This document shows, in pieces, positions 24,293 to 29,993 of a stretch of 64,000 bases of DNA. The position numbers and the translations under genes were made by a program. Each line of letters begins with the position of its first letter. The stretch's first letter is position 1. The notes under the pieces were generated by a model. The model searched no databases. It saw only the letters and a list, made by a program, of their open reading frames with translations, and had not been told where the DNA came from. Location: NCBI RefSeq assembly GCF_013004645.1, contig NZ_JABEME010000009.1, positions 62,001 through 126,000 on the forward strand, given 5' to 3'. The stretch comes from Stenotrophomonas africana. GTDB taxonomy: Bacteria > Pseudomonadota > Gammaproteobacteria > Xanthomonadales > Xanthomonadaceae.

Positions 24293-24335
24293 TGGGGTCA
24301 GATCCGTTTTCCGCAGGAAAACGGATCTGACCCCA
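24293..24335. repeat. GGGGTC-family hairpin, perfect 20-bp stem
   Basis: The arms TGGGGTCAGATCCGTTTTCC and their exact inverse flank a GCA loop. Related hairpins with the same outer arms but different inner stems are at 29476-29514 and 29955-29993. Confidence 0.8.
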
Positions 24336-24370
24336 AGAGCCGTTCCGACAGATCGCAGGAAACTGTCGAA

Positions 24371-24472
24371 GGCGGGGTGGGTCCGGTTGAGGGGGCGTGA
24401 GCCGCATGGATGCGGCGACCGAGCTTACATGGACGTACTTGCAGCGTCCCCCTCGACCGGACCCACCCCGCC
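24371..24472. repeat. Long composite inverted repeat (copy 2 of 2)
   Basis: The arms GGCGGGGTGGGTCCGG and inverse enclose, on the minus strand, the same core as at 2691-2725 (CTGCAAGTACGTCC, TAAGCTCGGTCGCCGC). It is shorter than the 2.7-kb copy. The arms differ in sequence between the two copies but remain paired. Confidence 0.7.
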
Positions 24473-24603
24473 AACCCACGGATAGCCGGCTTTTGCCGTT
24501 GCTTCGGCCGTTGCCATGGCTTCGACGGGTGCCGGGCGCCGCCCGGCCGAACTACAATCCTGCTCATGCTGAATTTCTCGAATACCCCCCGCCGGGGGCG
24601 CCA

Positions 24604-25182
24604 ATGAGCGGCCGTGGGGGCAATGACGGCCAGGTCCGCATCATCGGCGGTCGCTGGCGCAATACCCGTCTGCCGGTGCCGACCCTGCCGGGGCTGCGGC
24701 CCAGCAGCGATCGCGTGCGCGAGACCCTTTTCAACTGGTTGATGCCCAGGCTGGGCGGCGCGCGGGTGCTGGACCTGTTCGCCGGCAGCGGCGCGCTGGG
24801 CCTGGAAGCCGTCTCGCGCGGTGCCGCCCACGCCACCCTGGTCGAGCGCGATGCGCAGCTCGGGCGCAACCTGACCGCCGCCGTCGCCAAGCTGCAGGCC
24901 TCCGAGCAGGTCACCGTCGTGCAGGCCGATGCCCTGCGCTGGCTGCAAGGGGCGCAGGCGCAGCAGGTCGACCTGGTCTTCATCGACCCGCCGTTCGCCG
25001 ATGGCCTGTGGCAGGACGTGCTGGCCCAGCTGCCGCGGCACCTGGCTGCCGATGCCTGGCTGTACCTGGAATCGCCGGCCGGCCACGTGCCGATGCTGCC
25101 GCCGGACTGGCTGCTGCACCGCGAGGGCGGCACCCGTGAGGTGCGCTTTGCCCTGTACCGCCGCGCCACTGCTACACTTTGA
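24604..25182 (+). CDS. rsmD: 16S rRNA (guanine966-N2)-methyltransferase RsmD
   Basis: A 192-residue SAM-dependent methyltransferase that modifies G966 of 16S r[18 protein letters not shown] and [15 protein letters not shown] are the characteristic N-terminal blocks. SAM motif I is [15 protein letters not shown], and the catalytic DPPF is in [13 protein letters not shown] start at ATG 24604 ([16 protein letters not shown]). It lies 26 bases upstream of coaD, a common bacterial pairing. Confidence 0.95.
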
Positions 25183-25208
25183 CCTCATCTGAACATCTGC
25201 ATCCGCCC

Positions 25209-25718
25209 ATGACCGTGGCCAACCGCCGCATTGCCGTCTACCCCGGCACGTTCGACCCCATCACCAACGGTCATATCGACCTGGTAAGCCGGGCCGCACC
25301 ACTGTTCGAAAAGGTCGTGGTCGGCGTGGCACAGAGCCCGTCGAAGGGACCGGCACTGCCGCTGGAGCAGCGCGTGCAGCTGGCACGTGGCGCACTGGGC
25401 CACCACGGCAACGTCGAAGTCATCGGCTTCGACACCCTGCTGGCCCATTTCGTACGTTCGGTCCAGGGCGGGGTGCTGCTGCGCGGCCTGCGCGCGGTGT
25501 CCGATTTCGAGTACGAGTTCCAGATGGCCAGCATGAACCGCCATCTGATTCCGGAGGTCGAGACCCTGTTCCTGACTCCGGCCGAGCAGCACAGCTTCAT
25601 TTCGTCCTCGCTGGTCCGCGAGATCGCGCGCCTGGGCGGCGACGTGTCCGGTTTCGTGCCGGCCGCGGTGCTCGAAGCCCTGCGCAAGGTCCGCGAAGCG
25701 AAGGCTGCACAGTCGTAA
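25209..25718 (+). CDS. coaD: Phosphopantetheine adenylyltransferase
   Basis: A 169-residue nucleotidyltransferase making dephospho-CoA from 4'-phosphopantetheine and ATP. The N-terminal [16 protein letters not shown] contains the T/HxGH nucleotide-binding motif, and the C-terminal [20 protein letters not shown] carries the ISSTxIR-type loop. ATG 25209 was chosen over an in-frame TTG 30 bases earlier because it starts the conserved fold. Confidence 0.97.
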
Positions 25719-25778
25719 GCCCTGCTGTACCCGCACCCCATTACGTACAACACCACGCACCATTCCGGGAGGAAACCC

Positions 25779-26270
25779 ATGAACACCACCATGCGCGCGA
25801 TGCTGATCGCTTCGTTGGCCCTGGCCTTCACCGCCTGCAAGAAGGAAGAGGCCGCTCCGGTCGACGAGGCCAAGCAGGCCCTGGTCGCTCCGTCCAAGGA
25901 CGACGATGCAGGCTGGAAGAAGTACCTGCAGGAAGTGGCGATCCAGAACATGGGCAACATCACCAACAGTCCGTTCCTGTACTACCTCTCGCCGGAATCG
26001 GACCCGGACTTCCAGGCCAAGTACGAGCGCCAGACCGAGAGCGCGACCCAGGCCGTGGCCCGTGGCGTGCAGCCGGGCAACATGCTGGCCTTCGGTTCGT
26101 CGGCCTCGGGCAAGATGGCTGACATGATCCAGGCCGTCTTCAAGGACGTGTCGCCGGATTCGATGAAGGGCGTGCGCGTCGTCTTCATCGGCCAGTCGGC
26201 CGACAACGCCCGCGTACAGGCTGCGATCCAGCCGACCGGTGCCGAGTACATTTTCGTCGAAGCCAAGTAA
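25779..26270 (+). CDS. Conserved lipoprotein of unknown function
   Basis: A 163-residue exported protein with a clear signal peptide and lipobox (LALAFTAC, Cys20) followed by the charged KKEEAAPVDEAKQ. A GGGAGG ribosome binding site precedes the ATG. The remainder is soluble, with the segment GVRVVFIGQSADNARVQAAI near the C-terminus suggesting an alpha/beta fold. I do not recognise a family with known function. It is a separate unit between coaD and the ferredoxin gene. Confidence 0.75.
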   Translation: MNTTMRAMLIASLALAFTACKKEEAAPVDEAKQALVAPSKDDDAGWKKYLQEVAIQNMGNITNSPFLYYLSPESDPDFQAKYERQTESATQAVARGVQPGNMLAFGSSASGKMADMIQAVFKDVSPDSMKGVRVVFIGQSADNARVQAAIQPTGAEYIFVEAK

Positions 26271-26402
26271 TACCGAGCCATGGCGGCCATGCTCCGGCAT
26301 GGCCCGGGCGGCGTCCTGCAAGGGCGCCGCTGATGACCTGACCGGCCCGCGCGCCCGCGCTGGCCGGTCCTTTGTCCCAGGGCGCGGGCGAGGAGTATCG
26401 CC

Positions 26403-28411: not shown

Positions 28412-28454
28412 TCCGGTCGTGCCGGCCGTTGGCCGGCAATCTGGCCGATTACCG

Positions 28455-28488
28455 AAACCCCGCCTTTGCCGGCGGGGTTTTCTGTTTT
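28455..28488 (+). terminator. Rho-independent terminator after ggt
   Basis: The stem AAACCCCGCC/GGCGGGGTTT with a six-base loop is followed by TCTGTTTT. It lies 44 bases past the ggt stop and just upstream of the next gene's promoter region. Confidence 0.85.
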
Positions 28489-28531
28489 CCTCCTAGCGAT
28501 TATTTAACGAGCCGGCGCCGATAATCGACGC

Positions 28532-29419
28532 ATGAAACTCTGGTCTATTCGTGGAAACTCGCAGCGCCTCGACGGCGGCGCGATGTTCGGCAACGCGCCG
28601 CGTGCGTTGTGGGAAAAATGGGCGGCACCGGACGAGCTCAATCGCATCGAGCTGGCCTGCCGTGCACTGCTTGCCAGCCCGCTGGAAGGCAAGACCGTGC
28701 TGTTTGAAACCGGTATCGGCGCGTTCTTCGATCCGCGCATGCGCGAGCGCTATGGCGTGCAGGAAAGCCAGCACGTGCTGATCGATTCGCTGCGCGAAGC
28801 CGGCTTCGAGCACGAGGATATCGACGTAGTGGTGCTCAGCCACCTGCACTTCGATCATGCCGGTGGCCTGCTGGCGGCGTGGAGCGAGGGTCGCGAGCCG
28901 GAACTGCTGTTCCCCAACGCAACCTACGTGGTCGGCGCGCAGCATTGGCAGCGCGCCGTGCAGCCACACCCGCGCGACCGCGCCAGCTTCATTCCGGAAC
29001 TGCCCGGCCTGCTGCAGGCCAGTGGCCGTCTGGAAGTGGTGGACGGTGAATACTCCAAGGCGTTGGGGCGCAGCGTACGCTTCAGCTACAGCGACGGGCA
29101 CACACCGGGGCTGATGCTGGCCGAGATCGTCGGCCATGCGCAGGCCGGCGAGGGGCCGCATGGCGGCGTGGTGTTCTGCGCCGACCTGATTCCCGGCCGT
29201 TCATGGGTGCACGTGCCGATCACCATGGGCTATGACCGCAACGCCGAGCTGCTGATCGACGAGAAGCGGCAGTTCCTCGAAGACAAGCTGGCGCGCAACG
29301 TGCGTCTGTTCTTCACCCACGACCCGCAGGTGGCACTGGCGCAGCTGGGCCGCGATGACAAGGGTCGTTTCGTGACCCTGCACGAGCAGGGCGAACTGAA
29401 GGCGCGCGCGCTGGGGTGA
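28532..29419 (+). CDS. MBL-fold metal-dependent hydrolase
   Basis: A 295-residue metallo-beta-lactamase-fold protein with the zinc motif HxHxDH in [14 protein letters not shown], a later His in SYSDGHTPG and [11 protein letters not shown] supplying the bridging Asp. The final metal His is probably in [12 protein letters not shown]. This resembles the large quinoprotein/lactonase-like MBL class; the substrate cannot be assigned. No signal peptide is visible, so it is probably cytosolic. It stands alone, with a GGGGTC hairpin beyond its stop. Confidence 0.88.
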
Positions 29420-29475
29420 GGGGTGTTGTCGGCAGGGCTTGCAGCCCCGCCTCTGACGGTTGGCTGCGATCTGTC

Positions 29476-29514
29476 GGGGTCGGATCCCGTTGCTGCGCAA
29501 CGGGCTCTGACCCC
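29476..29514. repeat. GGGGTC-family hairpin
   Basis: The outer arms GGGGTCGGATCCC and GGGCTCTGACCCC match the other family members, while the inner stem CGTTG/CAACG is particular to this copy. It lies between the convergent MBL-hydrolase gene and psiF and could terminate both. Confidence 0.75.
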
Positions 29515-29539
29515 ATTTGATTGATCTGGACGAGCGATG

Positions 29540-29833
29540 CTACGAGGCCTTCAGGCAGCTGCTCATGAAGGTTTTGCGCGCATCACCGGCCAGCTTCTTG
29601 GCACCCGCGTCAGCGTTGCACTTGCGCATGCGTTCCTGCTGCGCATTGGCCGGCTTGGCTTCGGCGGCGTGGCCACTGAGGCAGGAACTCTGCGCGGTCT
29701 TGTAGGCGTCACCCTTCAGGCCCTTGTTCTTTGCCGAGCAGTCGGCCATGCGCTGCTGCTGCGGCGTGGTGGCATTGGCGGCCAAGGGCAGGCTGACCAG
29801 CAGGACAGCGGCCAGCAGGAATGAAGCTTTCAT
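29540..29833 (-). CDS. PsiF-repeat periplasmic protein
   Basis: A 97-residue secreted protein with a signal peptide (MKASFLLAAVLLVSLPLAANA) and two PsiF repeats: QQRMADCSAKNKGLKGD... ending SSCL, and QQERMRKCNADAGAKKLAGD ending SSCL. Each repeat has two Cys about 25 residues apart. PsiF is a phosphate-starvation-inducible protein of E. coli; its biochemical role is unknown. I chose ATG 29833, which begins the signal peptide. Confidence 0.88.
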   Translation of the reverse strand: MKASFLLAAVLLVSLPLAANATTPQQQRMADCSAKNKGLKGDAYKTAQSSCLSGHAAEAKPANAQQERMRKCNADAGAKKLAGDARKTFMSSCLKAS

Positions 29834-29954
29834 CGGGGACACTCCAAGCGGTGGCGGGTGCGCGGAGCATTGGCCTGCTGGCAGGAAGGCCACGTGAAGA
29901 ATGGTGCCCCGGCCGCCGCAGCCGGCCTGTAGTACAGCGCTTGGGGTAGCGCCT

Positions 29955-29993
29955 GGGGTCAGATCCCTTTCGGCACGAAAGGGCTCTGACCCC
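29955..29993. repeat. GGGGTC-family hairpin
   Basis: The outer arms GGGGTCAGATCCC and GGGCTCTGACCCC surround the inner stem TTTCG/CGAAA and loop GCA. It lies 11 bases past the upp stop, so it is probably the upp terminator-like structure. Confidence 0.75.

Follow-up and report, generated by a model that had tools for sequence, protein, structure and literature searches.

Short intergenic palindromes tied to Y1 tyrosine transposases are a known component of Stenotrophomonas genomes. The classical repetitive extragenic palindromes (REPs) of this genus carry a GT[AG]G head (PMC2817692), and in Escherichia coli the activity of the REP transposase TnpA requires a conserved mismatch bulge (PMC8266576). 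The TIRYT genes, described in 2013, are flanked by terminal inverted repeats (TIRs), some of them with the motif GGGGWSAS; two TIR families were reported, one K279a family (ORF 1152) was called self-complementary, and D457 was described as having families comparable in size and organisation (PMC3733652). Quentin and co-workers (2018) assigned 20 of 26 described TIRYTs to subclass 2.1 of the REP-associated tyrosine transposases (RAYTs), a subclass for which their paper gives no REP-like sequences and suggests a correspondence to TIRYT (PMC6006769). Here, we examine a 64,000-nucleotide stretch of the genome of Stenotrophomonas africana (assembly GCF_013004645.1, contig NZ_JABEME010000009.1, positions 62,001 to 126,000 of the forward strand), referred to below as the window, which holds three hairpins with GGGGTC outer arms.

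We propose, with a probability of about 0.85, that a tagged Y1 (HuH) transposase of the REP-associated type mobilises the GGGGTC hairpins, which would then be REP-like palindromes without autonomy of their own, and that this enzyme would read their constant arms together with the hairpin shape. The observations fit a relationship in which the terminal inverted repeats on either side of the Y1 gene ("TIR" of "TIRYT") have the hairpins as their dispersed and self-complementary form. The copy at 24293 is, in addition, a passenger in the core of a composite repeat built from a separate element family.

Results

The window contains the following copies of the palindrome.

24293..24335, no strand assigned: copy 1 of the palindrome, with a perfect stem of 20 bp, inner stem CGTTTTCC and loop GCA, the hairpin being located at 24294-24334
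29476..29514, plus strand: copy 2 of the palindrome, a solo copy with inner stem CCCGTTGC and two mismatches, G opposite T at position 7 and T opposite C at position 10
29955..29993, plus strand: copy 3 of the palindrome, a solo copy with inner stem CCCTTTCG and one mismatch, T opposite C at position 10

RNA folding of copies 1, 2 and 3 gave z values of -10.06, -7.22 and -7.05. An earlier note on this DNA had described three hairpins with shared, fixed outer arms; all three are present, and the complementarity of the arms is incomplete in copies 2 and 3, where the mismatches listed above interrupt it. The 9-mer arm TCTGACCCC alone occurs at the chance rate, with 15 instances in the window at no more than one mismatch against 15.2 expected. 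The full palindrome, GGGGTCNGA-N8..38-TCNGACCCC, is found at 30 places (26 distinct copies) in the 4.57-Mb genome to which the window belongs (G000; other G numbers denote relatives), and a chance origin of the whole palindrome was rejected because the reversed-pattern control returned none. Among the copies examined, length ranges from 26 to 43 nt; the outer arms are constant and the inner stem varies. GGGGTCAG was found in the arms, so that the GGGGWSAS motif of the TIR family is present.

The variable inner stems remain paired. We compared inner columns 13-18 with a control in which right arms were swapped among copies of equal length, using the own-genome copies and those from a 400-kb portion of G011, a relative within the genus that has 372 copies in all; this portion yielded 40 copies with distinct surroundings, representing 32 distinct hairpins. 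In G011, 186 of 189 cells were paired, against an arm-swapped mean of 0.731 and maximum of 0.805, and in the own genome 134 of 144 were paired, against a mean of 0.725 and a maximum of 0.857. The number of different inner 5-mers with perfect pairing is eleven in G011 and eight in the own genome. One orthologous place shows the same behaviour: beside a gene read as upp, the inner stem is CCCTTTC in G000, G001 and G017 and CCCTCTC in G008, paired in 4/4, with a degenerate copy in G022 and no hairpin seen in G013 or G023. The next gene beside copy 3 has hairpin pairs at the same place in G001, G008 and G017, and none was seen there in G013 or G023. The earlier note had claimed that the inner stems differ and yet pair, and that such compensatory change reflects a maintained fold; both claims hold, the second even more strongly for a larger element that is absent from the note and within which copy 1 lies.

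The outer stem shows a different regularity, a frequent mismatch that carries polarity. T stands opposite C at position 10 in 37/40 copies of G011, 16/30 of the own genome and 27/42 of those adjoining a transposase gene; at the same position T stands opposite A in 12/30 own-genome and 12/42 gene-adjoining copies. G stands opposite T at position 7 in 25/40, 15/30 and 1/42 copies of the three sets, respectively. Where a stem is paired throughout and yet retains such a mismatch, wholesale correction of one arm from the other is less likely, and the two strands of the hairpin can be told apart.

The hairpins are linked to one class of transposase gene. Searches with PF01797 found Y1_Tnp matches in 105 of 121 relatives. 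Among 33 Y1_Tnp loci examined, nine, all of one orthologous class, have hairpins beside the gene: seven show complete hairpins on both sides, and two (L102 and L108) have one-armed or contig-cut copies on one side. None of the other 24 loci, which include the three of the own genome, has a complete hairpin, and partial traces among them comprise a degenerate copy about 1.4 kb from the match at L018 and a half motif at L105 and L106. In named genomes (S. maltophilia D457, EA1, SJTL3 and others, S. geniculata and one uncultured Stenotrophomonas), the arm motif stands on both sides of the gene in 9/9 loci and complete hairpins on both sides in 7/9. An ortholog at no less than 77% identity is present in 17 genus genomes, with complete hairpins on both sides in 14/17 and on the 3' side in 17/17. 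The predicted protein has readable HuH (HVH) and Y---NP motifs and scores 76-82 bits with the NCBIfam model REP_Tyr_transpos, whose cut-off is 80.

Copy number is associated with the gene. Across the 121 relatives, the hairpin count per genome ranges from 0 to 372, and 30 of the 73 genus genomes have none. All 17 gene-bearing genomes hold 40-372 copies; the 56 genus genomes lacking the gene have a median of 0, with none in 30 (Mann-Whitney p 1.7e-9). Of 71 relatives at a greater distance, 16 show inverted copies of GGGGTCRG flanking the gene, against a background of 22 per 335 kb (some loci being cut near the gene). In 13 of these 16, no motif in reverse orientation stands upstream, so that they resemble simple terminal repeats more than hairpins.

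The earlier note had suggested a RAYT-like enzyme and a search for a transposase with a tagged copy. For the family as a whole this was fruitful, since a tagged Y1/HuH gene exists in genus relatives and its carriers hold more copies, while the own genome has no such gene. A cognate transposase there was rejected on two grounds: its three Y1_Tnp loci lack a complete hairpin, and the orthologous site is otherwise occupied, with the neighbours of the transposase locus kept and a different 7.5-kb stretch between them. In the place of the transposase (L264:3827-10051; contig C1 of the own genome, about 626.8-633.1 kb) lie minus-strand open reading frames (ORFs), one of which resembles an RHS/YD-repeat protein. 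Since the gene is absent, the 30 own-genome copies are probably relics.

A second TIRYT-like class, located at about 4.3-4.5 Mb, was considered as a source and rejected, because the seven loci fetched have no complete hairpin; one of them (L172) has a single GGGGTCAG and one CTGACCCC. Near 2330-2375 of L173, L174 and L176, this class (about 45% identical) shows a AAAAGGGGACG-type sequence by the gene and not a complete GGGGTCAGA hairpin. Two further arrangements were noted. In S. maltophilia D457 (L104:2073-2494), four repeats of the hairpin, spaced at 127 bp and with some stems changed, lie 3' of the transposase, forming a small array like a bacterial interspersed mosaic element (BIME). Relatives from other families of the order (G075, G078, G086, G088 and G102) carry nested palindromes such as GGGGTCAGAGTAAAGGGACAGAGT...ACTCTGTCCCTTTACTCTGACCCC, in which the outer motif is unchanged and a similar second motif lies inside the stem.

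The surroundings of copy 1 are a dispersed repeat in their own right, with the following parts.

About 24030..24550, no strand assigned: composite repeat of dispersed type, made up of two divergent elements, a core and short repeats on the flanks; many BLAST matches cover query positions 331-851
24117..24220, minus strand (GGA strand): candidate RsmA-binding three-way-junction element, left; loops AUGGAU and AGGGAC; cmsearch 109.6 bits; fold z -8.4
24371..24472, plus strand (GGA strand): candidate RsmA-binding three-way-junction element, right; loops AUGGAU and AUGGAC; cmsearch 111.0 bits; fold z -8.6
24244..24269, plus strand: REP-like palindrome with a GTAG head (GTAG at 24245-24248) in the composite core, located in the sequence

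By BLAST, the composite is a dispersed repeat of about 520 bp, and a 1.2-kb query has 28 matches in the own genome, a count that includes fragments and the window. The composite is made of a core with GTAG REPs and two long hairpins, each 102-104 nt in length and opposite in orientation. A GGGGTC hairpin occupies the core in 18 of 33 same-genus element pairs, and the orthologous sites in G001 and G005 have a different core, so the small hairpin is best seen as an optional guest of the composite. Variation of the inner stem, which the earlier note had stressed, is not shown by every copy: the CGTTTTCC stem is identical in 13 of these 18 cores, a sign of its having been copied along with the composite. 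At the edges of the core (window 24221-24228 and 24363-24370, for example), many same-genus pairs have a short inverted motif, TCTGACAG/TTCGACAG ... CTGTCGAA, directly next to the outer stems, a position that would suit a junction or terminal sequence of the composite.

The long hairpins form a family of their own with a conserved architecture. We aligned 34 rows (set A1: 41 distinct units minus 7 near-duplicates, one strand), chosen by an ATCCAT core with an inner stem of no fewer than 4 bp and by complementarity of the outer arms; outer-stem pairing and the pairing and loop of hairpin 1 are thus partly selected in this set, and the stem and loop of hairpin 2 and the junction helix are unselected. 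The alignment describes a three-way junction, a long outer stem with two small hairpins, in which RNAalifold found changes on both sides in 31 of 38 pairs. In A1, 97.7% of cells pair, against 41.5-44.6% with partners slid, and the covariation score is 0.599 against 0.154 when shuffled. Sets A2-A5 were fitted to a covariance model and lean to its structure; rows of A2, A3 and A4 below 56 bits were dropped before loops, pairs and contexts were counted, and A3 and A4 share two elements. A further 22 model-fitted elements, 20 of them from other genera of the family, are 99.0% paired, with a covariation score of 0.710 against 0.159. Both window copies are among the model's own training rows, which bears on their bit scores; when folded, the left copy gives the junction and the right copy a related branched shape. 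Good folding is likewise seen for the antisense of the right copy (z -8.7) and is to be expected of any long palindrome.

The pairs also indicate a strand. On the GGA strand, G.U outnumbers A.C by 30:4, 36:4 and 13:1 in three model-fitted sets (79:9 in total, shared elements counted once), the same cells holding 51 other mismatches and 4408 Watson-Crick pairs. The unfitted A1 set points in the same direction more weakly (20:8). Since G.U is tolerated over A.C on the GGA strand, the folded molecule is more likely to be this strand than its complement.

Loop sequences hardly vary from element to element, while those of the stems do. The second loop reads C-A-N-G-G-A-N-G in 34/34 A1 units, where it was unselected. 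In 66 model matches, it is CATGGACG in 24, CATGGATG in 15, CAGGGACG in 10, CAAGGACG in 5, CAGGGATG in 4, CAAGGATG and CACGGACG in 2 each and CATGGAGG in 1, with three departures (63/66 fit). When the loop was left free and the longest stem taken, A-N-GGA-N formed the loop of the second hairpin in 56/64 (A3), 29/36 (A4) and 21/22 (A5) elements and the first hairpin in 63/64, 28/36 and 21/22; the misses at the second hairpin are mostly shifted registers or stems shorter than 3 bp. The 36 distinct elements of A4 were drawn from two members of the genus and from five genomes belonging to one other family; two such hairpins are present in 29 of them, one in five and none in two, and their outer stems are of quite different sequence. 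Three elements are about 80 nt longer than the rest, with an extra GC-rich palindromic stretch inside a GGA loop (the second loop at L160:2121-2302 and L284:1760-1943, the first at L006:1709-1889), which suggests that palindromes insert into hairpin loops.

The elements extend beyond the genus. The covariance-model search scored up to 32, 150 or 13 candidates per genome, and the counts of matches are therefore lower bounds. At E 1e-3, matches occur in 58 of 73 genus genomes, at least 32 each in 47, and in 8 of 48 genomes of other families of the order, from two families; at E 1e-6, they occur in 93 of 297 family genomes, representing 16 of 54 sampled genera. One genome (G002) has at least 42 element matches, 35 at distinct places among those listed, and zero GGGGTC hairpins, from which it follows that the two families are independent. 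Among 73 sites examined, 41 are divergent (-+) pairs, one is a ++ pair, 31 are single and none has the +- arrangement. Tandem spacers account for 28 sites, convergent for 24 and divergent for 6, the remaining 15 having no assigned context. Where a single element lies in a tandem spacer, its orientation agrees with that of the genes in 5 of 6 cases, a number too small for a conclusion. A known Rfam family was rejected for the large elements: in the window, only tmRNA exceeded its threshold, and the best sub-threshold score of the elements was to C4 (31.2 bits against a gathering score of 45). A weak match to our model (R1) at window 3744-3843 (33.6 bits) was taken as chance.

Discussion

According to the mechanism we propose for the GGGGTC hairpins, the transposase would act on single-stranded DNA and read the outer arms, GGGGTCRGAT / CTCTGACCCC, together with the hairpin shape. 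The inner stem would need only to pair, and could drift by compensatory change. The common T.C mismatch, often accompanied by G.T, may mark the substrate strand for the enzyme.

We consider two other explanations, both of them unlikely. The hairpins might be kept as transcript elements, such as terminators or 3'-end stabilisers, with stems covarying under selection for the RNA fold. Their placement lends this idea some support, gene contexts being taken from our own codon-usage gene caller rather than from annotation. In the 400 kb of G011, 39 of 41 copies lie outside predicted genes, dimers and tandem arrays occur, and the 39 intergenic copies fall into 24 tandem, 14 convergent and 1 divergent spacers; divergent spacers are depleted (1/39 against a length-weighted expectation of 23%, p 4e-4) and convergent ones enriched (14/39 against 13%, p 2e-4), in statistics for which tandem arrays make the copies non-independent. 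The window itself is less uniform than the "ends of genes" of the earlier note, which describes 29476, between convergent ORFs, and 29955, 3' of a minus-strand ORF, and not 24293, which lies between two gene starts, those of a minus-strand gene read as htpG (start about 23951) and a plus-strand gene read as rsmD. The stems are also very stable, copy 1 matches an intrinsic-terminator pattern on the minus strand (tail GTTTTATTTC), and 21 of 24 matches of its composite type, not deduplicated, have at least five T in the 11 nt past the hairpin on that strand. However, copies in the tandem spacers of G011 are oriented like the genes as often as opposite to them (12 each, arrays inflating both), leaving an RNA signal, which the earlier note had offered, unsupported as a general role in a strand-specific form. 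Copies 2 and 3 gave no terminator-like match in the same scan, the hairpin-free genomes of the genus speak against a transcript role as well, and such a role leaves the tagged transposase unexplained. A simple scan of window 24000-30100 found no promoters.

Alternatively, the stems could be matched by neutral correction, template switching during replication copying one arm from the other with neither selection nor an enzyme. The copies that have lost the mismatch in favour of T opposite A, in both the own-genome and the gene-adjoining sets, are what correction would give. Such a process should, however, erase the T.C mismatch, and nearly all G011 copies keep it with their inner stems paired; nor does it account for the dispersal of the hairpins or for the tagged gene.

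Mobilisation by the tagged Y1 transposase thus remains our preferred reading, and a number of observations weigh against it. The gene is broken in 3 of its 17 carriers (a stop in G006 and G009, a split frame in G001), and in 3 of the 17 a complete 5'-side hairpin is missing, in one of them through a contig end. Of the 56 genomes without the gene, 17 (the own genome included) hold at least 10 copies, so that either the hairpins persist after the gene has gone or a different enzyme is enough. In the p values, related genomes count as if they were independent. Next to the transposase gene, the inner stems differ little between copies (0.922 paired against 0.901 when swapped, maximum 0.931), which speaks against a general rule; it is the dispersed copies that show the covariation. 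The T.C mismatch is much less regular in the own genome than in G011, and part of the compensatory pattern could come from template switching within palindromes. Finally, having no fixed GTAG head, the hairpins fall outside the classical definition of a REP.

Regarding the 104-nt elements, hexaloops of the form A-N-GGA-N closed by C-G are those known from structural work on CsrA/RsmE. The two C-ANGGAN-G hexaloops of each element look like this RsmA/CsrA signature and are candidate docking sites, and a gene for RsmA/CsrA is present in the own genome (PF02599, 91.3 bits at G000 C29:11677). The RsmA consensus is ACARGGAUG, GGA being its most conserved part, and rsmB-type RNAs were reported missing from Xanthomonas in 2014 (PMC3937308). 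Fold, strand preference, loop rule and distribution of the elements are all observed; from them we infer that the elements would be transcribed, that RsmA may bind the transcripts and that a titrating effect could follow. Binding of the transcript by RsmA/CsrA appears to us the most likely function of the large elements, by a modest preference. We likewise lean, somewhat cautiously, towards seeing the composite as a dispersed intergenic cassette with divergent RsmA/CsrA-binding modules, which at tens per genome might, in Stenotrophomonas and relatives, act together as RsmA-titrating RNA or as local RsmA sites on many mRNAs. Each three-way junction would present its two loops perhaps to one RsmA dimer, and read-through of the pair in either direction would make one module.

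The main rival, which we regard as possible and rather less probable, is that the elements are folded single-stranded DNA sites for a mobile-element enzyme, with the GGA loops as its recognition loops. Divergent pairing (41 of 42 paired sites are -+), dispersal in high copy number and presence that varies by species all resemble inverted-repeat mobile elements, and G.T pairs are tolerated in DNA too. This explanation sits less well with the loop itself, since CsrA/RsmA accepts just this loop spectrum, A-N-GGA-N with C-G as closing pair and any of the four bases at the first N, and with the presence of RsmA.

How, then, do the two families compare with what has been described? In the open-access papers that our searches listed, titles and opening lines of abstracts gave no description of the covarying stems or the 104-nt elements. 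The closest relatives of the GGGGTC hairpins are the TIRYT repeats of S. maltophilia described by Di Nocera and co-workers, which likewise flank a Y1 tyrosine transposase gene, carry GGGGWSAS and occur dispersed, dimeric or clustered; the accessible TIRYT text (PMC3733652) makes no mention of a variable paired inner stem, of mismatch polarity, of persistence without the gene or of composite nesting. The strain we compared is D457 rather than K279a, and its gene near 1.19 Mb has GGGGTC hairpins. The classical REP/RAYT system (REPtron) also consists of short intergenic palindromes tied to a Y1 transposase, with dimers and BIME-like arrays (PMC2817692, PMC8266576), and the hairpins share the REP trait of being dispersed intergenic palindromes linked to a HuH/Y1 transposase. 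They differ in having a constant outer arm and a variable inner stem in place of the GT[AG]G head: this sequence lies within 2 nt of the foot in 0/30 copies of the own genome, 6/40 of G011 and 3/42 of the gene-adjoining set, that is, 9/112 against about 5/112 by chance with equal bases. Recognition sequence (the outer arm) and shape (the inner stem) are naturally separated in these hairpins, which offers a ready-made test of how a Y1 transposase reads its substrate.

Among known RNAs, those nearest to the 104-nt elements include CsrB, CsrC and RsmX/Y/Z, which present GGA in hairpin loops. An abundant covarying family with paired RsmA-type loops, present in Stenotrophomonas and in further genera of its family, makes RsmA control in such bacteria directly testable and, if our reading is correct, would amount to a regulator's decoys spreading as repeats. 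In Xanthomonas campestris, RsmU is an RsmA-binding RNA derived from a 3'-UTR, and changing all four of its GGA motifs left binding and function (PMC7694677), so that GGA alone is not the whole story there. With RsmU and with the CsrB, CsrC and RsmX/Y/Z RNAs the 104-nt elements share GGA in hairpin loops; they differ from all of them as two-loop junction modules that occur in tens of copies, often as divergent pairs, with widely varying outer stems.

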